DNA of 64,000 bases from Halovenus aranensis (lineage in GTDB: Archaea > Halobacteriota > Halobacteria > Halobacteriales > Haloarculaceae): NCBI RefSeq assembly GCF_900100385.1, contig NZ_FNFC01000007.1, positions 62,001 through 126,000 of the forward strand, written 5' to 3'. The notes beneath the pieces are model-generated. The model did not search any database. It worked only from the letters and a program-made list of their open reading frames with translations, and was not told the origin of the DNA. How positions within the stretch are numbered: the stretch's first letter is position 1; each line of letters begins with the position of its first letter. Positions 47,787 to 62,109 of this stretch are shown piece by piece. The translations under genes were made by a program, and so were the position numbers.

Positions 47787-48314
47787 TCACTCCGTGCGTG
47801 CGTTCCCGATGGCCGTCGTCAGTGTCGCCGCGTCTGTTCGACCGCGGTGGCGCCACGCGATACGGTTCTCGGCGTCGAAGACCACCGTGTAGGGGACGCC
47901 TTTGGCATCGAGGCGCTGTGTGAGGGTGAGGTCGGTATCAGCCCCGAGCGTCCAGGCTCCCTGGTGGTCGGCCCACCACGCCGACACGTCTTCCCGGGTA
48001 ACGGTCTCGCCAAGGGGTTCGTTGGTCACTGAGACGAACTGGACCTCCCTGCCGAGGCGCTGGTGGGCCGTCGCCATCTCGGACATCATCGACTCACAGA
48101 CGCCACACCACGTGGCGAATAGTTCGAGGACCGTGACCCGACCGCGTTCTGGCACCGTGACAGCTCCGTCACTGCTACCGGGGGCGTCGATGGTCTCCAG
48201 CTGTAGTGACTCGAAACTAGACCCGTCCGACCCGGTGTTGTTGAACGCGAGCGCCGCACCTCCGCCGAGGACCGCGAGACTGCCGACGCCGGCGATGACT
48301 TCGCGCCGCTTCAT
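47787..48314 (-). CDS. TlpA-like exported thioredoxin
   Basis: 175 residues from ATG 48314. An N-terminal KRREVIAGVGSLAVLGGGAALAF looks like a twin-Arg-less anchor/signal. The thioredoxin fold follows with redox site ATWCGVC and cis-Pro region GVPYTVVFD. Expected outside the cytoplasmic membrane, reduced by the CcdA encoded next to it. Likely donor for SCO1/CuA or cytochrome assembly. Confidence 0.88.
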   Translation of the reverse strand: MKRREVIAGVGSLAVLGGGAALAFNNTGSDGSSFESLQLETIDAPGSSDGAVTVPERGRVTVLELFATWCGVCESMMSEMATAHQRLGREVQFVSVTNEPLGETVTREDVSAWWADHQGAWTLGADTDLTLTQRLDAKGVPYTVVFDAENRIAWRHRGRTDAATLTTAIGNARTE

Positions 48315-48316
48315 CG

Positions 48317-49033
48317 CTACCACCCCTCGATGACCGCTCTGGCGTCTGTTCTAGCCTCGCTGGCCCCGGGCGGGCCGCCGTTGTAGGCGCGCTCGACGAA
48401 GCCGTCCTTGTTGACCAGCAGGACGACCGAGGCGTGCTGGAACATCGTCGCCTCGGTGTCGCCGCCGTGGCCTCCCTCGCCCGACTCGAAGGCGACGCCG
48501 AAGGTGTCCTCGACGACCCGCTTTGCCGCCTCGGGCGTCTCCGGCCTGAGGAAATACCAGTTGTCGGCGTCGTCGTTGACGCCCATCTCCTCGCCGTAGG
48601 TCCGGAGGCGCTCGGGGGTGTCCTGTTTCGGGTCGAACGTCGTCGGCAGAAAGGCGATTTCGTCGGCGTACTCCTGCTCGACGGAGTCGGCCTGGACCTG
48701 CCGGAGCGACGCGGTCAGCCCCGGACAGACCGTCCGACAGCTCGTGTAGATAAACGTCATCATCACGTGGCGCTCGCCGACGAACTCCCGCGTCGAGACA
48801 GTTCTGTCGTGTAACGGCGCAGGTACCGACACGTCCGGAATCTGCTCGCCGTAGGTTGGATACGGAATATCGAGGTCTTTCCGGCGGTCGTAGTTTTCCG
48901 GGGGGTCTAACACCACGTCGTCGTTGCCGCTCTCGCCGCCGACGAAGGTGTCAACACAGCCCGCCGCTGCCGTGGCAACCGCTGTTGTGCCTGCGGCCAG
49001 TAGCGTCCGTCTGTCGACTCGCTTGATTGGCAT
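48317..49033 (-). CDS. SCO1/SenC family copper chaperone lipoprotein
   Basis: 238 residues. A Tat-like/lipobox N-terminus (VDRRTLLAAG...TAAAGC, Cys26) indicates a lipid-anchored exported protein. Copper site: CRTVC (Cys99, Cys103) plus the distal His in TMFQHASVV. SCO proteins load CuA centres, and a CuA-bearing subunit lies in this island at 56766-57383. Confidence 0.92.
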   Translation of the reverse strand: MPIKRVDRRTLLAAGTTAVATAAAGCVDTFVGGESGNDDVVLDPPENYDRRKDLDIPYPTYGEQIPDVSVPAPLHDRTVSTREFVGERHVMMTFIYTSCRTVCPGLTASLRQVQADSVEQEYADEIAFLPTTFDPKQDTPERLRTYGEEMGVNDDADNWYFLRPETPEAAKRVVEDTFGVAFESGEGGHGGDTEATMFQHASVVLLVNKDGFVERAYNGGPPGASEARTDARAVIEGW

Positions 49034-49039
49034 GGGAAA

Positions 49040-49627
49040 TCACTCCGGACCGTCTTCGAGGACCGGTCTGGTCTGTTCGTTGAACTGTGCGAGCGCGTTG
49101 GCGACCTGTGAGGGGAGGTCGGGCTGTGGCTCGGCCAGCGCCGGCTCGTCGGCCGGCTCCGGCCAGCCGACGACGACGCGGCCGACGTTGCCGGCAATCT
49201 CGTGTGAGACACACACCTGCTGGGTGTCGACGTAGTCGTAGACGCCCTCGGTCTCGAAGGTGTGTGTGTAGCTCGACCCGGGACCGGTCATGAGGTCACT
49301 GCCCCAGGCCGCCGCCTGCGGGGTCGTTCGGTGTGGCGGGTGATTGTCCTCGTGGTAGCCGGTCACGTTGTGTCTGCCGGTTTCGACGACCCACTCGACC
49401 CTCGTGCCGGGGCTGACGTGGACCACCTGTGGCTTGAACTCCGGGAACGGCCGCGAGGTGACTTTCACCGTGAACGTCTCCGCGGGGACGCCGAGCTCGC
49501 CGGCGTTTTCGGGTGGCTCGTCGTCACTCTCGCCGCCGGCGAACCCGCCCACACAGCCCGCGAGCGCGGCGGCGGCCACGCCACCGGTCACGCGAAGTGC
49601 GTCACGACGGGAGAGTTGTGGTGTCAT
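49040..49627 (-). CDS. Halocyanin-like blue copper lipoprotein with atypical axial position
   Basis: 195 residues, twin-Arg signal SRRDALRVTGG and lipobox LAGC (Cys25). Cupredoxin ligands: His86 (GRHNVTGYH), Cys139 and His142 (QVCVSHEIAGN). The usual axial Met, four residues after His142, is Asn147. It lies directly downstream of nirK (28 nt), so it is the likely electron donor to NirK. The Asn should alter redox potential or spectrum, if copper is bound. Confidence 0.86.
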   Translation of the reverse strand: MTPQLSRRDALRVTGGVAAAALAGCVGGFAGGESDDEPPENAGELGVPAETFTVKVTSRPFPEFKPQVVHVSPGTRVEWVVETGRHNVTGYHEDNHPPHRTTPQAAAWGSDLMTGPGSSYTHTFETEGVYDYVDTQQVCVSHEIAGNVGRVVVGWPEPADEPALAEPQPDLPSQVANALAQFNEQTRPVLEDGPE

Positions 49628-49655: not shown

Positions 49656-50753
49656 TCAGGGCTCGGGGTTGAAGATGTCGGGCTCTTCTTCGCCTTCGAC
49701 CTGGATGACGCCCAGCATTCCCTTGTTGACGACCCGCGAGAGCGCGTGGTCGACCAGCTTGATTGGGCCGGGCACCGGGGTGTCGATTTCGGCGATTGCG
49801 ACGCTGCCGGGGACGACCGGCGCGGTCTCGACGAACCGGTCGGGGTCGGACACCACGTCGCCGTCGCGGTAGAACGTCTCCCAGACGTTGCCGATGCCGT
49901 GCCAGGAGCTGGTGAGGTTCGGGCCGCCGTTCGAGTGGAAGATGCGAATCCGCTCGCCCTTGTCGACGGTCACGGGACCGTAGCCGTTGCCGGTGAAGGC
50001 GTAGGCCTCGCCGTTGAGACAGACGTAGGTCGGCTCCTCGTTTTTCATCGCGTCGAAGTCGAACTTGTGGTGACCCTCCTTGCCGGCCGCGGCTTTCGTG
50101 TAGATCTCGTGTTGGCCGAAGTAGAGCTCGCGGTCGACCTCGGGGAGACCGTCCTCTGGCTCGACCAGGATTGCGCCGAACATGCCGGAGCTGATGTGCT
50201 GGTCCATGTTCGGGACCGCACAGTGGTAGACGAACGAGCCCGGGTACATCGCTTTGAACTCGATGGTGGCGCTCTCGCCGGGTGCGACCGTGGTGTCGTC
50301 TGCCCCGCCGCCGGGGCCGTACACCGCGTGGAAGTCGACGTTGTGAGGCATCGAGTTCGACTCGTCGTTGGTCAGCGTCAGCCTGACCGTGTCACCGCGA
50401 CGAACCCGAATCATCGGTCCCGGAATCCGCCCGTCGAAGGTCATGTAATCGAAGGTGACCCCGGGCTCGATTTCGGCCGTCTCCTCGGTCGTCGTCATCT
50501 CGATTTCGTGGTGACGCGGCTCGTCCCAGTCGACCGGGTCCGGAAGCTCTCTCGGGTCTGCCGCGATTCTGTCCGTGTCCGTCTCCGCCGCGTTGTCGAG
50601 TGAGTCTTGCATATCTGTAGGAGTTTCCTGGGGTTTGTCATCGGTGTCATCGCTGCTCGAAAGCGGGCCCGTACAGCCCGCGAGCGTGGCCACACCCCCG
50701 GCGCCGAGCGCCGAGAGGAACGGGCGTCGTCTCGTGGAGGTTGGTTCGGACAT
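49656..50753 (-). CDS. nirK: Copper-containing nitrite reductase
   Basis: 365 residues, two cupredoxin domains, exported (STRRRPFL signal, lipobox LAGC, Cys27). Type 1 copper: His137, Cys178, His186, Met191. Type 2 copper: His142, His177 and His336 (LVDHALS). Catalytic Asp140 (HNVDFH) and His285 (SSWHGIG). All key residues are present, so it should reduce nitrite to NO. A strong TATA-like tattaaat lies about 30 nt upstream, but no CGAA-N4-TTCG site was found. Confidence 0.96.
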   Translation of the reverse strand: MSEPTSTRRRPFLSALGAGGVATLAGCTGPLSSSDDTDDKPQETPTDMQDSLDNAAETDTDRIAADPRELPDPVDWDEPRHHEIEMTTTEETAEIEPGVTFDYMTFDGRIPGPMIRVRRGDTVRLTLTNDESNSMPHNVDFHAVYGPGGGADDTTVAPGESATIEFKAMYPGSFVYHCAVPNMDQHISSGMFGAILVEPEDGLPEVDRELYFGQHEIYTKAAAGKEGHHKFDFDAMKNEEPTYVCLNGEAYAFTGNGYGPVTVDKGERIRIFHSNGGPNLTSSWHGIGNVWETFYRDGDVVSDPDRFVETAPVVPGSVAIAEIDTPVPGPIKLVDHALSRVVNKGMLGVIQVEGEEEPDIFNPEP

Positions 50754-51064
50754 TAGCTGTCACCTTACACCTGTACATTTAATACACAAGCATATGAAGC
50801 GTAGAGTCTATTCTTGTCCGCCGAGAGCCGTTCTCGGGCGCTGAGATACGGTCTCAATTTCCCCTCATACGCAGGGCCATTAATAAGTAACCGGCCGGCG
50901 TTTGCTCCCAGAGCGATGTATTCGAACACAGTTTGGAAGGAATGAATACATCTCGACGGACGGGCGGCTGGCGCAGTCGTCTTCGAGCGATGCGCTGATT
51001 GTCGACGGACTGGCCGAACAAGTTCGGCCACAGACATTCGTCGGTACCGGGAAAACGGCGAACA
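50754..51064. promoter_or_regulatory. Divergent promoter region between nirK and the copper ATPase
   Basis: 311 bp without a gene. Contains the nirK TATA-like box (about 50774-50781), a 9-bp perfect inverted repeat (GATGTATTC 50915-50923, GAATACATC 50944-50952, 20-nt spacer) and a perfect CGAA-N4-TTCG site at 51015-51026. Confidence 0.6.
51015..51026. promoter_or_regulatory. NarO-type palindrome before the copper ATPase
   Basis: CGAACAAGTTCG, perfect match, ending 39 nt before ATG 51065. Supports that start over the upstream in-frame extension. Confidence 0.7.
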
Positions 51065-53446
51065 ATGAGTACGTGTAGCCTCTGTGACCTCCCGACGCCG
51101 ACTCCGCCCGTGACCGAGGCGGGGGTCGAGGGGACGTTCTGTTGTCGCGGCTGTCTGGAGGTCGCACGGTCGCTAGACGAACTCCCGGATTCGAGCACGG
51201 ACGTGCGCGCGGACACAGAAACCGACACACCCGACGTGCCCGCGGACGCCGAGACGGCCTACTTCGCCGTCGACGGCATGCACTGTACCACCTGTGAGGC
51301 GTTTCTCTCCTTGCGCGGCGACGAGACCGAAGGAGTCTACGGCGTCGAGGCGAACTACGGGCTCGAAACCGCGCGCGTGTTCTACGACCCGGAGCAGGTG
51401 TCGGCGGCGGCCCTGCCCGAGACACTCTCGGGCCGTGGCTACCAGTTCCGACAGCCCGACGAGGGCAGCGGCGCGGCGATGCGGAGCCGTCAGCGCGACA
51501 CGGCACAGCGGCTGGTCGTCGGCGGCTTCCTCTCGATGCTGGTGATGCCGTGGTATTTCGTCTATCTCTATCCGAGCTACGTCGGCATCGAGACGGGGAT
51601 TCTGGACGTGGACGCGACGACGGCGGCGACGCTCTATGTCCCGATGGTTATTATCGCCTTCGCGACAGCCGGCGTCCTATTGTATACTGGCGGCCCTGTC
51701 CTCAGGGGCGCGTGGGTGAGCATCACGACACGACAACTCAACATGGACTTACTGGTTGCAGTCGCCGCCTGCGCCGCCTTTGCTTACAGCACCGTGGCGC
51801 TTGCCACCGGCAGTATCCACCTCTATTACGACGTGAGCGTGGCTATCGTGATGATTGTGACACTCGGACGCTACTACGAGGGCTCGGTCCGCTCGCAGGC
51901 GACCGCTCGCCTCACCGACCTCACGGCCGCACGCACGAGCGAGGCGACTCGCCTCACCGACGACGGCCGCGAGACCGTCGACATCGACAGCCTGACAGCG
52001 GGCGACGAGGTCGTCGTTGCGCCGGGCGAGCGGGTTCCCGTCGACGGCACTGTCAGTGAGGGTGTCGCCGACGTAGACGAATCGGTGGTGACCGGCGAGC
52101 CGATGCCGGTCACGAAAGCGCCCGATGACGAGGTGGTCGGCGGCTCTGTCGTCACCGACGACGCGCTCGTCGTCGCAGTCGGGCCGGCCGTCGAGAGCAC
52201 GGCCGAACGGATTACGACGGCGCTGTGGGAGATACAGAGCGCCACGCCGGGCATCCAGCGCCTTGCCGACGCGATTGCGACAGTATTCGTTCCGCTCGTC
52301 CTCGTCCTCGGTACGGCGGTCACGCTCTGGCAGCTTGCTGGGGGAAGCTCTGTTGCGAGCGCGATGCTGTCCGGGCTGGTGGTGCTCGTGGTCTCGTGTC
52401 CGTGTGCGATGGGGCTGGCGACGCCGCTTGCGGTCTCGGCCGGGCTGCGAGACGGGCTCGAACGGGGTGTCATAATCGCCAACGAATCTGTGTTCGAGGT
52501 CGCGCCCGCGGTCGATACCCTCGTCTTCGACAAGACGGGGACGCTCACGACCGGCGAAATGACCGTCCGAGAGCTCGCCGGCGACGACCGGACGCTACGG
52601 TACGCTGCGGCGGTCGAACGCCTCGCCAGCCACCCGGTCGCGGACGCGATTCTCGACGCCGCGAGCGAGGACGAGGTGGGGATGACCGACGGCGGCACGG
52701 CGGTCGCCGCGGGGCTCCCCGGCGTAGACGGGTTCACGCGTCACCCCGGCGACGGCGTCTCCGGGACCGTCCAGGGACGCGAGGTCGTCGTCGGCACTCC
52801 CGAGTTCGTCGCCGACCGCGTCGGGCCGGTCGCGAATCTCCAGAACGAAATCGACGCGGCCGAGCGCTCGGGACACCTGCCGGTCGTCGTCGGCTGGGAG
52901 GGACAAGCCCGAGGGGTCATCGCAGTCGGCGACAGCGCCCGTGAGGAGTGGGAGCGCGCACTCGAAACGTTCGACGACCACGAGATAGCGGTGCTGACCG
53001 GCGACGAGGGACCCGGAGCCCGGCGGTTCCGCGAGCATCCAGCCGTCGATAGCGTCTTCGCCGGCGTCCCGCCCGACGGGAAAGTCGAGACGGTGCGCCG
53101 GCTGTCGGCGTCGGGAACTACCGTGATGGTCGGCGACGGAACCAACGACGCGCCGGCCTTGGCGGCCGCCGACCTCGGGGTTGCGATGGGGGACGGAACC
53201 GCTCGGGCCATCGAGGCGGCCGACGTCGTCGTCACCGACAACGACCTCACGGCCGTCGAGACGGTGTTTGCGTTCGTGCGCGGGACCCGGCGGCGCATCC
53301 GCGAGAACCTTGCCTGGGCCTTTGTCTACAACGCCGTGGCGATTCCGCTCGCGGTCTCTGGCCTGTTGAACCCGCTGTTTGCGGCGGTCGCCATGGCCGC
53401 GAGCAGTCTCATCGTCGTGTCGAACTCCAGACGGGCCGTCCTCTGA
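51065..53446 (+). CDS. CPx-type copper-translocating P-type ATPase (CopA2/FixI-like)
   Basis: 793 residues from ATG 51065. The N-terminus has a Cys cluster (CSLC, then CCRGC; Cys4, 7, 26, 27, 30), then an HMA domain GMHCTTCE (Cys74, 77). Core motifs: VTGEPMPV (actuator TGE), SCPC ion site, DKTGTLTTG (phosphorylation Asp), SHPVA, and GDGTNDAPAL. The extra Cys cluster is typical of ATPases that supply copper to terminal reductases rather than detoxify. Placement next to nirK and SCO1 supports this. Confidence 0.94.
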   Translation: MSTCSLCDLPTPTPPVTEAGVEGTFCCRGCLEVARSLDELPDSSTDVRADTETDTPDVPADAETAYFAVDGMHCTTCEAFLSLRGDETEGVYGVEANYGLETARVFYDPEQVSAAALPETLSGRGYQFRQPDEGSGAAMRSRQRDTAQRLVVGGFLSMLVMPWYFVYLYPSYVGIETGILDVDATTAATLYVPMVIIAFATAGVLLYTGGPVLRGAWVSITTRQLNMDLLVAVAACAAFAYSTVALATGSIHLYYDVSVAIVMIVTLGRYYEGSVRSQATARLTDLTAARTSEATRLTDDGRETVDIDSLTAGDEVVVAPGERVPVDGTVSEGVADVDESVVTGEPMPVTKAPDDEVVGGSVVTDDALVVAVGPAVESTAERITTALWEIQSATPGIQRLADAIATVFVPLVLVLGTAVTLWQLAGGSSVASAMLSGLVVLVVSCPCAMGLATPLAVSAGLRDGLERGVIIANESVFEVAPAVDTLVFDKTGTLTTGEMTVRELAGDDRTLRYAAAVERLASHPVADAILDAASEDEVGMTDGGTAVAAGLPGVDGFTRHPGDGVSGTVQGREVVVGTPEFVADRVGPVANLQNEIDAAERSGHLPVVVGWEGQARGVIAVGDSAREEWERALETFDDHEIAVLTGDEGPGARRFREHPAVDSVFAGVPPDGKVETVRRLSASGTTVMVGDGTNDAPALAAADLGVAMGDGTARAIEAADVVVTDNDLTAVETVFAFVRGTRRRIRENLAWAFVYNAVAIPLAVSGLLNPLFAAVAMAASSLIVVSNSRRAVL

Positions 53447-54311: not shown

Positions 54312-54998
54312 CTACGGGTCGCCGACCTGCTGGACGAGTCGCTGGAGGCGGTTGCCGTCGGCGTCGCGAAACTCGACGATGAACTGCCGGCCGCTTCGCG
54401 TCTCGGTGAGGTCCTCGCGGGCGACGCTGAACCGGAACGGCGGTCCCTCGACGCGTTCGAGGGTCTGGTCGTCGGCAAGCACGACGACGTGGTCGACTCC
54501 CTGCGGGTCGACGATTTCACACGTGATGCTGTCACCGTCCTCACAGACGAGTTCGCCGCCGACGGCTGGGCCACTGTCACCCCCCGTAGAGGGCGAGAAT
54601 TCGAGCATCATCACACCCGGCGCGAACGTCGCGAGTGCGATGATACACACCGCGAAGATAGTCAGGTTGATTTTCCCCGAGTTCCGCGAGAAGGCTCGGC
54701 CGACGGTCGTCTCCGCGTTCCGGCGGAGCCGAATCGTGAGCGGGACCAGCACCATGTGAGTAAACGGTCCCCAGACGATGAGCAGGAAGCCGTACGCCAT
54801 CAGGTACAGCACCGGCCGCCATCCTGTCACCGAATGGACCGCGGAACCGCCGGCCCAGACGCCGATGCCGAGAAAGAGCAACGCGCCGCTTTTGAGCCAG
54901 CGCCAGATTGGCGTATTGGCGTAGTAGACGCTGAGCAGGTCTCGCCAAGACTGCTGTACGTAGCCGCGAGCCGTCGCGATGAGTGTTGCGTGTATCAT
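54312..54998 (-). CDS. Membrane protein with extracytoplasmic beta domain, end of NO-reductase operon
   Basis: 228 residues from ATG 54998 (a TTG at 55037 overlapping the upstream stop is possible). Three membrane segments (about residues 34-52, 57-80, 107-128) are followed by a beta-rich domain (VGGELVCEDGDSITCEIVDPQGVDHVVVLADDQTLERV). Two Cys in that domain could form a disulfide. No family recognised; possible accessory subunit of the oxidoreductase encoded upstream. Confidence 0.7.
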   Translation of the reverse strand: MIHATLIATARGYVQQSWRDLLSVYYANTPIWRWLKSGALLFLGIGVWAGGSAVHSVTGWRPVLYLMAYGFLLIVWGPFTHMVLVPLTIRLRRNAETTVGRAFSRNSGKINLTIFAVCIIALATFAPGVMMLEFSPSTGGDSGPAVGGELVCEDGDSITCEIVDPQGVDHVVVLADDQTLERVEGPPFRFSVAREDLTETRSGRQFIVEFRDADGNRLQRLVQQVGDP

Positions 54999-55026
54999 GG
55001 GGCTGTTCGTCGAACCTGGGTCATCG

Positions 55027-56769
55027 TCAGGCTCCAATCGACCACAGCTGGGTGAGCAGGAACCAATTCAACACGTACAGCGTGACAAACGCCGCCATGA
55101 AGACGAGACAGAGGGTGAACGTCCCGCGCATCTCGACGGCATGCACGGAGTCAGACCCGCCGTCGGGGACGAGTCCACCCTGGGGGAGCAAGGCCTGTGC
55201 GTCCGACTCGGTCGTCCGCGAGCCGCCAAGCAGTGACCCGACCGCGACGAGCACGAACACTGCGCCCACGATGATAGCGAGCAGCGTCATCGGACCGAGA
55301 ATCAGGAACAACGGCTCCGCGGCCGAGAGGCTGAACTCCGACCCGATGATGTTGCTGACGACCTGTGAGGTCCGGCGTGGCACACCGTAGAGAATGCCGA
55401 TGTAGACCATCAACAGCGAGGCCAGCCCCATCGCCGCCGCGTAGCCATACGGGACCAGCAGCGCGAGCCTATCGGAGATGAAGTTGCGCTGGAACATGGT
55501 CTTGATGACGAAAAACACCAGTCCCATAAAGGCGAGTGTCGTCCCGAGCGCGACCGTCGCGTGGAAGTGGCCGACCGTCGCGTAGGTGTTGTGCCAGGTC
55601 ATGTTCAGCTGCATCTGTCCCATCAGGACACCGGTGATTCCGCCGAGAAAGCCAAACAGGATGATGCTGAAAATCGTCGAGGCGAAGATGGGGTTCTTCC
55701 AGGGCGCGGAGGTGAGCCAGCCGAACAGGCCGCCGCCCAGCCCGCGCTGTCTGCGTCCGGCTTCGAGCCCCGCCGGGATGGCGAAGGCGTGAATCATGCT
55801 GGCAAACGCCGCGCCGTAGAAGGCATACGACGTGTTGAAGATGCGCCAGCCAGCCGAGAGCCCGGGGTCGACCATGAGGTGGTGTGCGGCCCCGAGGTTG
55901 ATGAAAAACAGATACATAATAAAGGCGGTCCGGGAGACTTTCTCGCTCGCGACGACCGCGCCGCCGACGACGTGGGTCAGGAAGTACCAGACCGTGATCA
56001 TCGCCAGGAGATTGATTTGCTGGCTGCCGTGGCCGATAATCCAGTACAGTTGGCGGTAGATGCCGGCGTTGATGGTGTCGATGATGCCGGCCTGCCAGAT
56101 GAAAGCGTAGCTGAACGCCGCAATCCCGCCCAGAATCGCCTGGACAGCGATGACAAAGGTGACGAACGCGCCGAAGGCGACCAGCGGGAGCGTCCCGTTC
56201 CAGTCCTCCCGCTTTTGTTGGATGATGCTTACGAGAAACGGCAACGCGGCGACAGTTGCGCCGAGCAAAAAGAGGATAGCACCGCCGTAGAAGCCAAGCG
56301 GGACATCGAGCGGGACGTAGGCCGTCAGCAACGGCGCGTCGGAGCCGCCGCTGAGCGTCCAGATGAAGTAGTTGACTGCCAGTGCGCCAGCGACCATAAT
56401 CCCCCAGCCGGCCTTGGCGACTTTCGTCAGCGGCAGGCGGCGACCCAACACGATGGGGCCGCCGACGTACAACACCGCAATCTCCATGAAAACCATCCAG
56501 AAGATGAGGAGGTTCCAGGCGTGCATGCTGAGGTGGCGGTAGTACCCCTCGAACTCGCCGATGAGGCCGACAACCTCCCAGCGGGTCATCGCCACCGAGA
56601 AGGCGAACAGGCCGCCGACGATCATCGCGATAACAGCTGTCAGCCCGAACAGTTTGACGTGTACCTCCGCCGAGCGGTGGATGTTCAGCCCCGTCACCGA
56701 ACAGGTCCGGAAGCCGTCCTCGTCGTAGTCGTTCTCGAAGAGTCTCGTGATTGTTGCTAGCATTGTCAC
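55027..56769 (-). CDS. Heme-copper oxidase superfamily subunit I, probable eNOR-type nitric oxide reductase
   Basis: 580 residues, about 14 membrane segments. Heme/CuB ligands present: His83, His247, His296, His297, His401, His403 (GHFHATV). At the HxxxY site the sequence is GHGSQQ: Gln251 stands where O2 reductases have the cross-linked Tyr. With a CuA subunit next to it and NirK nearby, this fits the eNOR family rather than an oxidase. It would reduce NO to N2O. Overlaps the CuA gene by 4 nt. Confidence 0.85.
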   Translation of the reverse strand: MTMLATITRLFENDYDEDGFRTCSVTGLNIHRSAEVHVKLFGLTAVIAMIVGGLFAFSVAMTRWEVVGLIGEFEGYYRHLSMHAWNLLIFWMVFMEIAVLYVGGPIVLGRRLPLTKVAKAGWGIMVAGALAVNYFIWTLSGGSDAPLLTAYVPLDVPLGFYGGAILFLLGATVAALPFLVSIIQQKREDWNGTLPLVAFGAFVTFVIAVQAILGGIAAFSYAFIWQAGIIDTINAGIYRQLYWIIGHGSQQINLLAMITVWYFLTHVVGGAVVASEKVSRTAFIMYLFFINLGAAHHLMVDPGLSAGWRIFNTSYAFYGAAFASMIHAFAIPAGLEAGRRQRGLGGGLFGWLTSAPWKNPIFASTIFSIILFGFLGGITGVLMGQMQLNMTWHNTYATVGHFHATVALGTTLAFMGLVFFVIKTMFQRNFISDRLALLVPYGYAAAMGLASLLMVYIGILYGVPRRTSQVVSNIIGSEFSLSAAEPLFLILGPMTLLAIIVGAVFVLVAVGSLLGGSRTTESDAQALLPQGGLVPDGGSDSVHAVEMRGTFTLCLVFMAAFVTLYVLNWFLLTQLWSIGA

Positions 56770-57383
56770 TCACCCGTCACCGTCTCGTACTCCGCGGGGT
56801 CGACCACGTAGAACGTGCCATGCATCGAGGCGTGGCCCTGCCCACAGAACTCGTTGCAAATGACCTGATAGGTCCCGGGCTCGTCGAAGCTCATCGGAAC
56901 GACCCACTCCGTCCCGGGGAACACCTGCAGGTTTATCTGTTGGCTCAGGCTCTCTTCGGGCCGAACCGAGAAGCCGTGCTGGACATCGGCCGAACTGAGG
57001 TGGATATCGTACTCCGTCCCCGCTTCGAGGACCACCGGGAGTCCGCCCCAGCTGAACCGTCGCGGGAAGACATACACCGACTTGCTCGGCGGGACCAGTA
57101 CGTCCTGTCGTTCCTCCTCAGTCGGCGCTCGACTCTCTTCGATTGCCGCGGTTGAGGTCGTCTCCGCGTTTTCCTCGTAGGTGTCGACCGTCGCGGCGTA
57201 GGCCTCCGGTTCCACGTCGTAGGTCTCGCCGATGGGGTTCTGGTCGCCGAACCTGGTAAACCCGCTCATCCAGGCGAAGATGCCGAGCGACCACGCGCCG
57301 GCGATGCCCAGCCAGATTGTCTCGCGTCTGTTTACCGCCCTGTCCCACCAGTTACCGTCCGGGGGGTCGAGTGGACTTGTCAT
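56766..57383 (-). CDS. CuA-bearing subunit II of the heme-copper NO reductase
   Basis: 205 residues: one N-terminal membrane anchor (about 23-40), an acidic linker, then a cupredoxin domain with a complete CuA site, His136, Cys176, Cys180, His184, Met187 (CNEFCGQGHASM). Accepts electrons from a blue copper or cytochrome donor. The 4-nt overlap with subunit I ensures coupling. SCO1 and TlpA in this island are candidate CuA assembly factors. Confidence 0.93.
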   Translation of the reverse strand: MTSPLDPPDGNWWDRAVNRRETIWLGIAGAWSLGIFAWMSGFTRFGDQNPIGETYDVEPEAYAATVDTYEENAETTSTAAIEESRAPTEEERQDVLVPPSKSVYVFPRRFSWGGLPVVLEAGTEYDIHLSSADVQHGFSVRPEESLSQQINLQVFPGTEWVVPMSFDEPGTYQVICNEFCGQGHASMHGTFYVVDPAEYETVTGE

Positions 57384-57389
57384 ATGTTA

Positions 57390-57527
57390 TTACCTCGCTG
57401 GTACCGACATGATATCGAGCAGTCCCCACCCGACGTACACCAGAAAGAAGAACACGAGCGACGCGACTGCGAGCAGGAAAATGCGATTGTACAACCATTG
57501 CATCGTCGGTATCTCGTCTGCACTCAT
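57390..57527 (-). CDS. 45-residue single-TM protein heading the NO-reductase operon
   Basis: From ATG 57527 (MSADEIPTMQWLYNR) with one hydrophobic helix (about residues 16-38, IFLLAVASLVFFFLVYVGWGLL), stop 6 nt before the CuA gene. Size and place resemble small accessory subunits such as subunit IIa of ba3 oxidase or CcoQ. A palindrome ending 50 nt upstream supports it as the first gene of the transcript. Confidence 0.78.
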   Translation of the reverse strand: MSADEIPTMQWLYNRIFLLAVASLVFFFLVYVGWGLLDIMSVPAR

Positions 57528-57576: not shown

Positions 57577-57588
57577 CGTACATGTTCG
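57577..57588. promoter_or_regulatory. NarO-type palindrome (one mismatch) of the NO-reductase operon
   Basis: CGTACATGTTCG (plus strand), 50 nt before ATG 57527 on the minus strand. Confidence 0.55.
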
Positions 57589-57654: not shown

Positions 57655-57666
57655 CGAACATATTCG
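57655..57666. promoter_or_regulatory. NarO-type palindrome before the 26-aa microprotein
   Basis: CGAACATATTCG, perfect, ending 39 nt before ATG 57705. Confidence 0.68.
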
Positions 57667-58517: not shown

Positions 58518-58799
58518 TCACTCGCTTTGGCCACCGTCCATCTCGAAAAGCCACAACGCTACCTCGCCCACCGCGGGGTCGTCTGTCTGTTCGAGCGCTT
58601 CGATGGGAGCGGCCGTGAGCCGTCGCGTGAGCCGGTGTGAGAGCGCCGAGAGGACCAGCGCCTGTCGCCTGTCGGTGCCTATCGAGCTGACGGCTTGTTC
58701 GAGTGCGTCTCGACGAACGTGCGAGCGGCGGCGACGTATCGCCTCTACTGCGGCCTCCGTAGGGTCGTCTTCGCTGGTGTGTGCGGCGTCAGTGCTCAT
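58518..58799 (-). CDS. Small protein resembling the HemA C-terminal dimerisation domain
   Basis: 93 residues, all-helical. The pattern AIRRRRSHVRRDALEQAV...ALSHRLTRRLTAAPIEALEQ recalls the C-terminal dimerisation helices of glutamyl-tRNA reductase (HemA), without its catalytic or NADPH domains. Overlaps the DUF2249 gene upstream by 4 nt and thus is in the palindrome-controlled transcript. Link to heme synthesis is a guess from similarity by eye. Confidence 0.55.
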   Translation of the reverse strand: MSTDAAHTSEDDPTEAAVEAIRRRRSHVRRDALEQAVSSIGTDRRQALVLSALSHRLTRRLTAAPIEALEQTDDPAVGEVALWLFEMDGGQSE

Positions 58800-59056
58800 C
58801 GTTCCCAGATTACCGTGACAACCGCATCGTCGGCTTCGACAGTCTCGTAGGCGTACCCCCTGTCGTCTAGTTTCGGGTAGAGGTTCTGTGGAGCCCTGTC
58901 GTTCAACTGGACGAGGATTCTTTCCTCCAGTTCGGTAAGCCGTTCGAGCGTCTTCGAAAGCGGTTTTGGCGGGCCGAGCTGGCGCACGTCGAGTTCTTCG
59001 CGTCGTTGCTCCGGTGCGTCTGTCTCCTCGACGATGTGGTCGGTCTCTACCGGCAT
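58796..59056 (-). CDS. DUF2249 single-domain protein
   Basis: 86 residues from ATG 59056, chosen because the perfect palindrome 59095-59106 then sits at the standard 39 nt; the in-frame ATG inside the palindrome is rejected. DUF2249 core: LDVRQLGPPKPLSKTLERLTELEERILVQLNDRAPQNLYPKLDDRGY. A TusA/SirA-like fold is expected. DUF2249 recurs three times in this island, so a role in NO or metal-cofactor chemistry is inferred. Confidence 0.8.
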   Translation of the reverse strand: MPVETDHIVEETDAPEQRREELDVRQLGPPKPLSKTLERLTELEERILVQLNDRAPQNLYPKLDDRGYAYETVEADDAVVTVIWER

Positions 59057-59094
59057 GCGGGTCGCTTGTACTCGCCTGAACTGGGGGCTGTCGG

Positions 59095-59106
59095 CGAACA
59101 TCTTCG
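59095..59106. promoter_or_regulatory. NarO-type palindrome before DUF2249/HemA-like pair
   Basis: CGAACATCTTCG, perfect, 39 nt before ATG 59056 (minus strand). Confidence 0.68.
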
Positions 59107-59117
59107 GCCGACGGTCG

Positions 59118-59573
59118 TTACTGGGCTTTCCCGACGAGGGCCCGGAACTCGCCGGGTGATTTCTGTCGGTACTCCCAGGTGAACTCGGGGCCCTCCTCGG
59201 CGTCGAACCGGTGATAGAGGGGTTTGGGGTCGTGGTCGTTGATGAGAACGAACCCCTCACCGGCGTCTAGTTCGTCAAACGTCTCCAGGAGGACCTCGTG
59301 ACGGCGTTGTGGTCTCAGGTCTCTGACATCGACGGCACCGAGCCCATCACGTTCGCCACAGGTCCGTATCTGGAGGCGTCGCGGCTCGGCGTCGGGCTCG
59401 GCATACGTCCAGTCGAGGGCCTCGCTGCGCTCGATTTGATACCGTGCTAGGTGTGGGTCGATATCTCGGTCGGCGACAACCGTCAGCCTGTCACCAACGT
59501 CACGCGCTGAGAGGGCGTTGAATATCGCCTCGCGGTACTCGCCGTCGCGTTCTCGCAGGTCCAGGTCTGTCAT
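59118..59573 (-). CDS. Tandem DUF2249 protein
   Basis: 151 residues with two DUF2249-like units: about 3-70 (LDLRERDGEYREAIFNALSAR...) and about 80-148 (VDVRDLRPQRRHEVLLETFDELDAGEGFVLINDHDPKPLYHRFD). A TATA-like ttattcc lies about 28 nt upstream and a near-palindrome 40 nt upstream. Reads toward the 86-aa DUF2249 gene but has its own promoter. Confidence 0.82.
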   Translation of the reverse strand: MTDLDLRERDGEYREAIFNALSARDVGDRLTVVADRDIDPHLARYQIERSEALDWTYAEPDAEPRRLQIRTCGERDGLGAVDVRDLRPQRRHEVLLETFDELDAGEGFVLINDHDPKPLYHRFDAEEGPEFTWEYRQKSPGEFRALVGKAQ

Positions 59574-59754: not shown

Positions 59755-60348
59755 ATGGGATTCCCGTCACCGTTCGGTGGGTCGACTGATGACGACCTCT
59801 TCGACGAGGCCGACGAGTTCGTTCCAGAACACGTCCCCGAACCGGGTTGGTTCCTGGAGGGACAGACCGTCCTCACGGGCGAGGACCACCTGGCATTCCA
59901 CGAGACGACGAGCGACATCTTCGACGAACGCGGCGTCTACGACATGACGTTCGGGTACAACCTCGCGCGCCTGAACCATGACACCCGTCACCCCGACGCC
60001 GGGTACCGGTACGCCGAGGAGGCAGACGACGCCGCGGTCCTCCGCGCCGAGTTCACGCCGACGACGCCGTTTTGCCCGCAGAGCGACACACTCACGAAAG
60101 GCGCCTTTCGCGCCTGGAACGAACTGAGCGACCGACACGACTACGACCGCGTTCGAGTGCGGGTCGCCGAGACACACCACCAGAGCGACGACATCAACGC
60201 TGCGCTCGAATCGCTCGAAGCCACGTACCGCGAAACTGGGTCGGTGGCACCTGCTACAGACCAGGCGTCCGACCTCGGCACGGGACCCGCCTACACAGAC
60301 GACACCGAGACGACCGGCCGCGGAGACGCCCCTGACGCGCCGTTTTAG
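59755..60348 (+). CDS. Putative Fe-S/MIP18-like protein of the denitrification island
   Basis: 197 residues, soluble and acidic. The segment FTPTTPFCPQSDTLTKGAFRAWNELSDRHDYDRVRVRVAETHHQSDDIN resembles the DUF59/MIP18 region with its Pro-Phe-Cys-Pro motif, seen in Fe-S assembly factors. The N-terminal third carries His residues (EDHLAFHETTSD) and the C-terminal 40 residues are disordered-looking. The stop overlaps the convergent 12-TM gene by 4 nt. Function not established. Confidence 0.65.
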   Translation: MGFPSPFGGSTDDDLFDEADEFVPEHVPEPGWFLEGQTVLTGEDHLAFHETTSDIFDERGVYDMTFGYNLARLNHDTRHPDAGYRYAEEADDAAVLRAEFTPTTPFCPQSDTLTKGAFRAWNELSDRHDYDRVRVRVAETHHQSDDINAALESLEATYRETGSVAPATDQASDLGTGPAYTDDTETTGRGDAPDAPF

Positions 60349-61706
60349 GAGCGCTGTTCGGCTCGGTCCTCGCCATCAGCGCGCCGTGGCGTCAGCGACC
60401 CGAGGACGATTTGGTCGAGCGTGTGGGGACTGTGACGCCGGACGACAAGCAGTAGATTCGCCAGCACGGCACAGAGCCCGAGTATCAGCAGGACACCGCC
60501 GAGGCCGACGAGCCACTGTGGTCCGCCGACGAGTGACGTTCCGGCAAGCAGTGCCGTCCCGCTCAGTGTGAGGGCGAAATCAGCGGCCGCCACCCGGTCG
60601 TCGTAGAGGTCGTCTATCATCGGCACGTCCTCGAAGCCGAGCAGGTCGCTGTAGCGATGCACCCAGACGACGAACGGGACGACGTGATACAGCGTCCCGA
60701 GTACAATGAACCCGACGAACCCGACGACGAGGAGGTGTGCGGCCCCCTCCGCGCCGAAAAGACGTGTGGGGTCAGTTGGGTCCCTGACCCACTCCGGGAG
60801 CGAAACCAGCGCCCAGAGTGTAAGCGCCAGCACACCGACCGCATACCGCCTGTGCATCGGCGTCACCTCGACCTGCGTCTCGACGAGCTTCCGACCGAGG
60901 ACGGTCGCGACCGCGAGTGCGGCGACGAGAAGCAGGACTGCACCGAGGCGGGCGACGAAGAGCCAATCGAGAAGCCGTCCTGCGGCGAGGAGAACGACAC
61001 CGACGGGATGGCCGACTTCCTCGGCCGTCTGGAGGTGATGGTCGACGTCGTGGAGGGCGGTCTGGGTGAACATCGTCCCGAGCTGGTACAACGCGCCGTA
61101 TATCGTGGTGAGGACCGCACCGAACACCGCGAGCGTCACGTGGGCACCGCGGACGCCGCCGTGTGTCACGGGAAGCCCCGACAGCACGCCGCGGTCGAGG
61201 TTCACCGCGAGCGCGAGCCCGAGAACAGTGAGCAACAGAAAACAGCAAAGCGCGAACAGGAAGTGGCCCTCGGTTACGTCGTACCCGTCGACGGTCGTGA
61301 GCGTCCGGCCGATGTTGTAGACGAACACCCAGAATCCTGCGAGCAACACGCCGCCGAACGCGACCAGCCACGGGAGTGCGCTCGTGAGAAACGCGACCGC
61401 GAACCCGGCGAGGCCGACGGTCACCAGCCCGAGTTGCACGCTCGCGAGCGTCCGGGAGTGCAAATCGGTTCCCGACCAGACGGGGACGAACTGCGTCATC
61501 GCGCCCATAATCGTGAGACAGACCCAGCCGGCGAGCAGGAGATGGACGTGAGCCAACCGACCGAGGCCGGGGACGGCATCGACAGTCCACGCGACGCCGA
61601 CACCGACGCCCGCAAACAGGAATCCCAGCGCGACGAAGAAGTGTCGCAGCGGCACTGTCATCGGCGGCTGCTGGGCCGTATCGAGAGTTCCCGGAATCGC
61701 GCTCAT
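60345..61706 (-). CDS. 12-TM heme-copper-oxidase/NnrS-like membrane protein
   Basis: 453 residues from ATG 61706, set by the palindrome at 39 nt. About 12 membrane helices. Conserved-looking His in helices: LAHVHLLLAGW, DVTEGHFLFAL, GAHVTLAVFG and LGTLYHVVPFVVWVHRY. This recalls NnrS and cofactor-poor subunit-I-like proteins found beside NO reductases. Heme or copper binding is likely but the CuB set (HxxxY, HH) is not visible. Confidence 0.75.
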   Translation of the reverse strand: MSAIPGTLDTAQQPPMTVPLRHFFVALGFLFAGVGVGVAWTVDAVPGLGRLAHVHLLLAGWVCLTIMGAMTQFVPVWSGTDLHSRTLASVQLGLVTVGLAGFAVAFLTSALPWLVAFGGVLLAGFWVFVYNIGRTLTTVDGYDVTEGHFLFALCCFLLLTVLGLALAVNLDRGVLSGLPVTHGGVRGAHVTLAVFGAVLTTIYGALYQLGTMFTQTALHDVDHHLQTAEEVGHPVGVVLLAAGRLLDWLFVARLGAVLLLVAALAVATVLGRKLVETQVEVTPMHRRYAVGVLALTLWALVSLPEWVRDPTDPTRLFGAEGAAHLLVVGFVGFIVLGTLYHVVPFVVWVHRYSDLLGFEDVPMIDDLYDDRVAAADFALTLSGTALLAGTSLVGGPQWLVGLGGVLLILGLCAVLANLLLVVRRHSPHTLDQIVLGSLTPRRADGEDRAEQRS

Positions 61707-61744
61707 ACGACAGCGTACCCGTTCCACTCACCTCCCGCTGCTCC

Positions 61745-61770: not shown

Positions 61771-62004
61771 TCACGCCCGCGAAATCTCGACGTGCCACTC
61801 GGCGTCGGCCACGTGCGCCGTCTCGTGTTCGAACCCGCGGTCTGAGAGCACATCGTACAGCGGCACCGGCTCGAAGCTGTTGACGAGCAACAGCGTCTCG
61901 TCGGGGCCCAGCTCGTCGAGTGCTGTGCTGATGTGGCCGAACGGTTCTCCCTCGATGTCGCGCGCGTCGAGTACGCGGTCGCAGTCGGTGTCGATAGCGG
62001 ACAT
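61771..62004 (-). CDS. DUF2249 single-domain protein (77 aa)
   Basis: 77 residues from ATG 62004 (MSAIDTDCDRVLDARDIEG). ATGs at 62025 and 62064 are in frame, but only 62004 puts the palindrome at 39 nt. Core: LDELGPDETLLLVNSFEPVPLYDVLSDRGFEHE, then WHVEISRA. Related to the two other DUF2249 genes at 58.8-59.6 kb. Confidence 0.8.
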   Translation of the reverse strand: MSAIDTDCDRVLDARDIEGEPFGHISTALDELGPDETLLLVNSFEPVPLYDVLSDRGFEHETAHVADAEWHVEISRA

Positions 62005-62042
62005 ATCTGTTTGAGTCGTCGCCATCTGGATGAGCGTTCTCC

Positions 62043-62054
62043 CGAGTATGTTCG
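62043..62054. promoter_or_regulatory. NarO-type palindrome (one mismatch) before the 77-aa DUF2249 gene
   Basis: CGAGTATGTTCG, 39 nt before ATG 62004 (minus strand). Confidence 0.55.
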
Positions 62055-62109
62055 AACCGGCCACAGCACAGGTCGGCCACTGTCACCATGTACCGCGACT
62101 TCTGCCGCG

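Follow-up and report, generated by a model that had tools for sequence, protein, structure and literature searches.

Oxygen reductases of the heme-copper superfamily split O2 with a cross-linked tyrosine. Among the NO reductases (NORs) that have been biochemically characterised is eNOR (PMC11388526), for which a glutamine in the active site is given as the distinguishing mark, and which has already been published from Natronomonas and other Halobacteria, Thermus being counted among the eNORs as well (PMC8756737). A review of the haloarchaea names qNor as their sole NOR class (PMC8400030). The presence of eNOR in Halobacteria was thus known before, though the enzyme is often passed over; what we add is a genome in which no other NOR was found, a count across the class and the companionship of a further protein, termed here subunit III.

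The locus lies in Halovenus aranensis, in a window (the whole stretch of DNA that was analysed) of 64,000 nucleotides. The explanation that, taken as a whole and judging from sequence, we hold with high confidence is that it encodes an eNOR-family NO reductase, a B-family relative of the heme-copper oxidases, which would act in a NirK-fed pathway leading from nitrite to N2O.

The operon, its neighbours and its promoter

The span 54312-57527, which the initial annotation had delimited as an operon, is exactly one four-gene operon with the reading frames as first given (Table 1), and in it the subunit II gene runs 4 nt into that of subunit I. The order small peptide - II - I - III is kept in 34 of the 35 haloarchaeal copies, the sole exception lying at a contig end. 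Between I and III, haloarchaea of the more distant subclade often have a gene for a heme O synthase (CtaB-like). In the bacterial eNOR operons examined, the 45-aa peptide has an equal position and the same Y31/W34/G35/D38 pattern. NirK, SCO1 and a copper ATPase had been described as surrounding the operon, and they are indeed adjacent to it, together with a blue copper protein and a thioredoxin-like protein. Across 35 Halobacteria loci, a copper P-ATPase lies near the eNOR operon in 24 and NirK in 11. Here, NirK is the likely source of NO, the blue copper protein is a candidate electron donor for eNOR, and SCO1/SenC probably takes part in the assembly of the CuA site.

Table 1. Features of the eNOR locus and its surroundings, in window positions
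Feature	Positions	Strand	Evidence or remark
Thioredoxin-like (TlpA/redoxin) protein	47787..48323	-	PF08534; synteny, kept in cluster
SCO1/SenC	48317..49033	-	PF02630
Blue copper protein, halocyanin/plastocyanin type	49040..49627	-	PF00127; TIGR02656 under cut-off
NirK copper nitrite reductase	49656..50753	-	TIGR02376, 393 bits vs cut-off 296
Copper-type P-ATPase	50999..53446	+	PF00122, PF00403
"Subunit III", fourth component, 228-241 aa, membrane helices and Ig-like domain	54312..55037	-	Co-occurrence, synteny, model
eNOR catalytic subunit I, 580 aa	55027..56769	-	PF00115, trees, residues, ba3-like fold
eNOR subunit II, 205 aa, one TM helix and cupredoxin domain	56766..57383	-	PF00116, TIGR02866
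Single-helix membrane peptide, 45 aa	57390..57527	-	Gene 1 of operon; no Pfam match
Palindrome CGTACATGTTCG, one mismatch	57577..57588		50-61 nt upstream of operon
Palindrome CGAACATATTCG (CGAATATGTTCG on operon strand)	57655..57666		Exact Haloferax mediterranei nirK promoter motif (PMC10062603)

Other genes of this denitrification neighbourhood deserve mention. Three DUF2249 proteins (58796-59260, 59118-59573 and 61771-62064, all on the minus strand) have homologues near other eNOR loci, and a 460-aa protein (60345-61727, minus strand) is weakly matched by COX1 in the region of the heme-ligand helix; in several genomes, homologues of the latter are again found near eNOR (loci L078, L121, L129, L131 and L135).

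The palindrome closer to the operon has a spacing near that of most other eNOR operons. Searching the window for CGAAYATRTTCG with at most one mismatch returned 11 sites for 0.39 expected, and a site with at least 10 of 12 matches stands upstream of 31 of 54 eNOR loci, mostly by 50-80 nt, when mononucleotide shuffles predict 0.3. In H. mediterranei, a species without NarO, mutations of the motif lower the activity of the nos and nor promoters (PMC10062603). The palindromes that the initial annotation had called NarO-type sites are therefore present, but the NarO label goes beyond the evidence, since the published motif comes from this NarO-less species. A haloarchaeal anaerobic regulator acting at CGAACATGTTCG-type palindromes would turn the operon on together with the other denitrification genes.

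Active site and place in the heme-copper superfamily

All six of the heme and CuB histidines announced for subunit I are there (H83, H247, H296, H297, H401 and H403). The first five show no variation across the 28 aligned eNORs, nor do Q250 and Q251; H403 is kept in 27 of 28. Gln251 occupies the position of the cross-linked tyrosine, four residues after H247 in the motif GHGSQQ, as had been noticed from the sequence: the H-x3-Y tyrosine that the B family carries in helix VI is absent, GHGSQQ standing in place of GHPxVY. The same position is a tyrosine in the A-type (GHPEVY) and ba3 (GHPVVY) oxidases of the same genome, and a glutamine in every intact homologue examined. A substitute tyrosine might come from helix VII, as in cbb3, where it lies six residues before the HH pair (S. 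meliloti CcoN, used as the comparison sequence, has it there); subunit I has an isoleucine at this position, and the idea that an oxygen reductase has its tyrosine elsewhere is rejected on this ground. In two bacterial loci, one on a Thermus plasmid (L064) and one in HRbin23 (L172), the motif GHFH reads GHFK, so that the second low-spin heme ligand changes from His to Lys.

Subunit II has the full CuA site initially attributed to it (H136, C176, E178, C180, H184 and M187). As regards a possible conserved proton channel, S324 and H327 of subunit I are invariant, and their helix corresponds in the alignment to K-channel residues in ba3. Pfam recognises COX1 in subunit I and COX2 in subunit II, and the NCBIfam models of oxygen reductases score far under their cut-offs (36 bits vs 671 for CtaD/CoxA). 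Modelled with AlphaFold (pLDDT 82), subunit I finds its best match in the ba3 oxidases, the closest solved fold being that of Thermus thermophilus ba3 (TM-score 0.74-0.79).

Trees place subunit I in the eNOR clade, outside the O2 reductases. In a tree of 43 heme-copper sequences, obtained by a quick search under a mixture model and assessed by SH-aLRT only, with no bootstrap, the Gln-bearing sequences all group together in a single clade (SH-aLRT 100), inside which Thermus and the Rhodothermus MAG sequences are found. The sister of this clade is the B-family clade, which includes the haloarchaeal ba3 oxidases (SH-aLRT 98), while the A family and qNor/cNor/CcoN fall outside both, the NorB-type chain of qNor/cNor being far from subunit I. 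The root of this tree is unsure because the deep outgroup branches are long, the two clades themselves being well supported. In a second tree of 55 rows, 43 haloarchaeal sequences form one clade (support 98), and Rhodothermus and other Rhodothermota-type bacterial sequences branch just outside it; this branching favours, without proving it, a transfer from bacteria to haloarchaea. Among named relatives, Halovenus salina comes closest, at 96-97%. Taken together, the tree, Gln251, the residue at the cbb3 position and the negative search for qNor described below bear out the initial assignment to an eNOR-type NO reductase rather than to an oxygen reductase.

Distribution, subunit III and proposed function

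The genome of H. aranensis is 99.7% complete, and a COX1 search in it returned a CoxA-CoxC fusion of A type, a ba3 oxidase, the eNOR and the weak match of the 460-aa protein mentioned above. This family search, along with a qNor protein search, found no qNor elsewhere in the genome; on these searches we reject a hidden one, and eNOR is the only NOR found. NosZ was not found in this genome either, the sole match being a CuA domain beside the ba3 oxidase, and NarG is absent because the genome has no PF00384 molybdopterin oxidoreductase. As no nitrate reductase, qNor or NosZ was found, NirK and eNOR are predicted to lead from nitrite through NO to N2O only. The type of NOR varies within the genus, another Halovenus genome (G117) having qNor and lacking both eNOR and NirK.

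Across 391 Halobacteria genomes, subunit I is present in 71, with identities of about 59-100%; ba3 sequences come at 31% or less, and nothing lies between. One genome (G353) has its subunit I split over two frames. As for qNor, it is found in 205 genomes: 45 have both enzymes, 26 have eNOR without qNor and 160 have neither. The statement that qNor is the only haloarchaeal class therefore fails. NirK is present in 215 of the 391 genomes, and it accompanies eNOR in 67 of 71 genomes vs 148 of the 320 others (Fisher p 2e-15, a value that is too small owing to species relatedness). Of the 26 genomes with eNOR and no qNor, 25 carry NirK. This means that surveys by annotation name, which see only qNor (PMC8400030), misjudge which organisms remove NO and which emit N2O, and that 25 of the 215 NirK-bearing Halobacteria would appear to release NO.

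Subunit III follows its partner almost without exception: a profile search of the 391 genomes found it in 70 of the 71 that have eNOR, and in the missing case (G034) subunit I is cut at a contig end, the same that is seen in locus L149. Three genomes without eNOR (G036, G281 and G334) lack subunit I and have only pieces of subunit III, and these are probably decaying eNOR loci. Among bacteria, the loci of Rhodothermus and other Rhodothermota also have the protein downstream of subunit I; in those of Thermus, Thermomicrobium, Defluviimonas and HRbin23, none was seen next to subunit I. The start of the window protein is probably the ATG at 54998; counted from there, the invariant residues include C152, C160, H81 and several Trp/Tyr. 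The structure model (pLDDT 89.7) combines membrane helices with a beta-sandwich, and 16 of 44 homologues give a weak match to Big_7, a bacterial Ig domain (best 1e-4). Its membership in a known family was rejected: Pfam and NCBIfam gave no match for the window protein, no solved relative was detected by sequence, and a fold search gave no match with an E value as good as 0.001, Ig/FN3-like domains at about 0.01 being all that it offered. It belongs to no curated family, and we found no description of it in the eNOR papers.

In the proposed mechanism, NirK would reduce nitrite to NO outside the membrane, and electrons would pass from halocyanin to CuA, to the low-spin heme and to the heme/CuB centre, where 2 NO, 2 electrons and 2 protons would give N2O and H2O. 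Subunit III, with its Ig-like domain, and the small membrane peptide may be structural partners, or partners in assembly or maturation. We lean, by a narrow measure, towards a broader proposal, in which the eNOR of haloarchaea and Rhodothermota has four components, with subunit III an obligate subunit or a dedicated maturation factor, and in which the ancestor of the haloarchaeal clade acquired the operon as a whole from Rhodothermota-like bacteria. These cultivable archaea are where the function of eNOR and the role of subunit III can be put to the test.

Being related to the B-family oxidases, the enzyme might still reduce O2, and a divergent oxygen reductase of ba3 type, working without a cross-linked tyrosine, would agree with the nearest solved fold and with the name of cytochrome c oxidase that such genes receive in databases. 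We nevertheless consider it very unlikely, given the glutamine shared by all intact homologues examined and their separate clade, the A-type and canonical ba3 oxidases that the genome already has, the strong tie to NirK and the denitrification motif in the promoter. An even smaller chance goes to another B-family NOR (bNOR, sNOR, gNOR or nNOR): these are B-family relatives too (PMC11388526), and the 43-sequence tree is without certified references for them, but the active-site glutamine is the mark of eNOR, and Thermus, whose enzyme is counted as an eNOR (PMC8756737), falls in the same clade.

The two-step pathway from nitrite to N2O would serve either respiration or NO detoxification. That the enzyme works mainly in detoxification is a variant of the eNOR reading, compatible with it, that we regard as possible though the less probable role. 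It fits the lack of both nitrate reductase and NosZ in the genome, and in one of the 391 genomes (G257) eNOR occurs while NirK and qNor are both missing; yet the linked NirK implies that the NO is self-made from nitrite, and an input through CuA suits a respiratory chain.

Comparison with known systems

The eNOR of Natronomonas and other Halobacteria belongs to the same clade, the subunit I of Natronomonas aquatica being 77% identical, but the haloarchaeal enzyme was described as having two subunits (PMC8756737); the four-gene anatomy of the operon is apparently a new addition, as far as could be checked. Rhodothermus and other Rhodothermota share with it the order peptide - II - I - III, the glutamine and about 59-61% identity in subunit I. 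They differ in subunit III, which is only about 28-32% identical, and in NirK, which is beside the operon in some loci and was not detected in others. One Bacteroidota MAG contig (JAJCYR010000091.1) has two eNOR-NirK loci that closely resemble each other and face opposite ways (L153 and L154); the pair either arose by duplication not long ago or is an artefact of the assembly. In Thermus, Thermomicrobium and Defluviimonas plasmids, the likeness is limited to 37-40% identity, the glutamine, the CuA subunit II and the small peptide; no adjacent subunit III is annotated there, and heme o synthase, Rrf2 and other genes follow instead. The haloarchaeal qNor (NorZ) catalyses the reaction proposed here for eNOR and is likewise associated with NirK, but it is a single chain of 740-780 aa that has no CuA subunit, stands far off in the tree and was not found in this genome. 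Finally, the B-family ba3 oxidase of T. thermophilus has the same fold and the same metal ligands, and what separates it from eNOR is that it has the cross-linked tyrosine and reduces O2.
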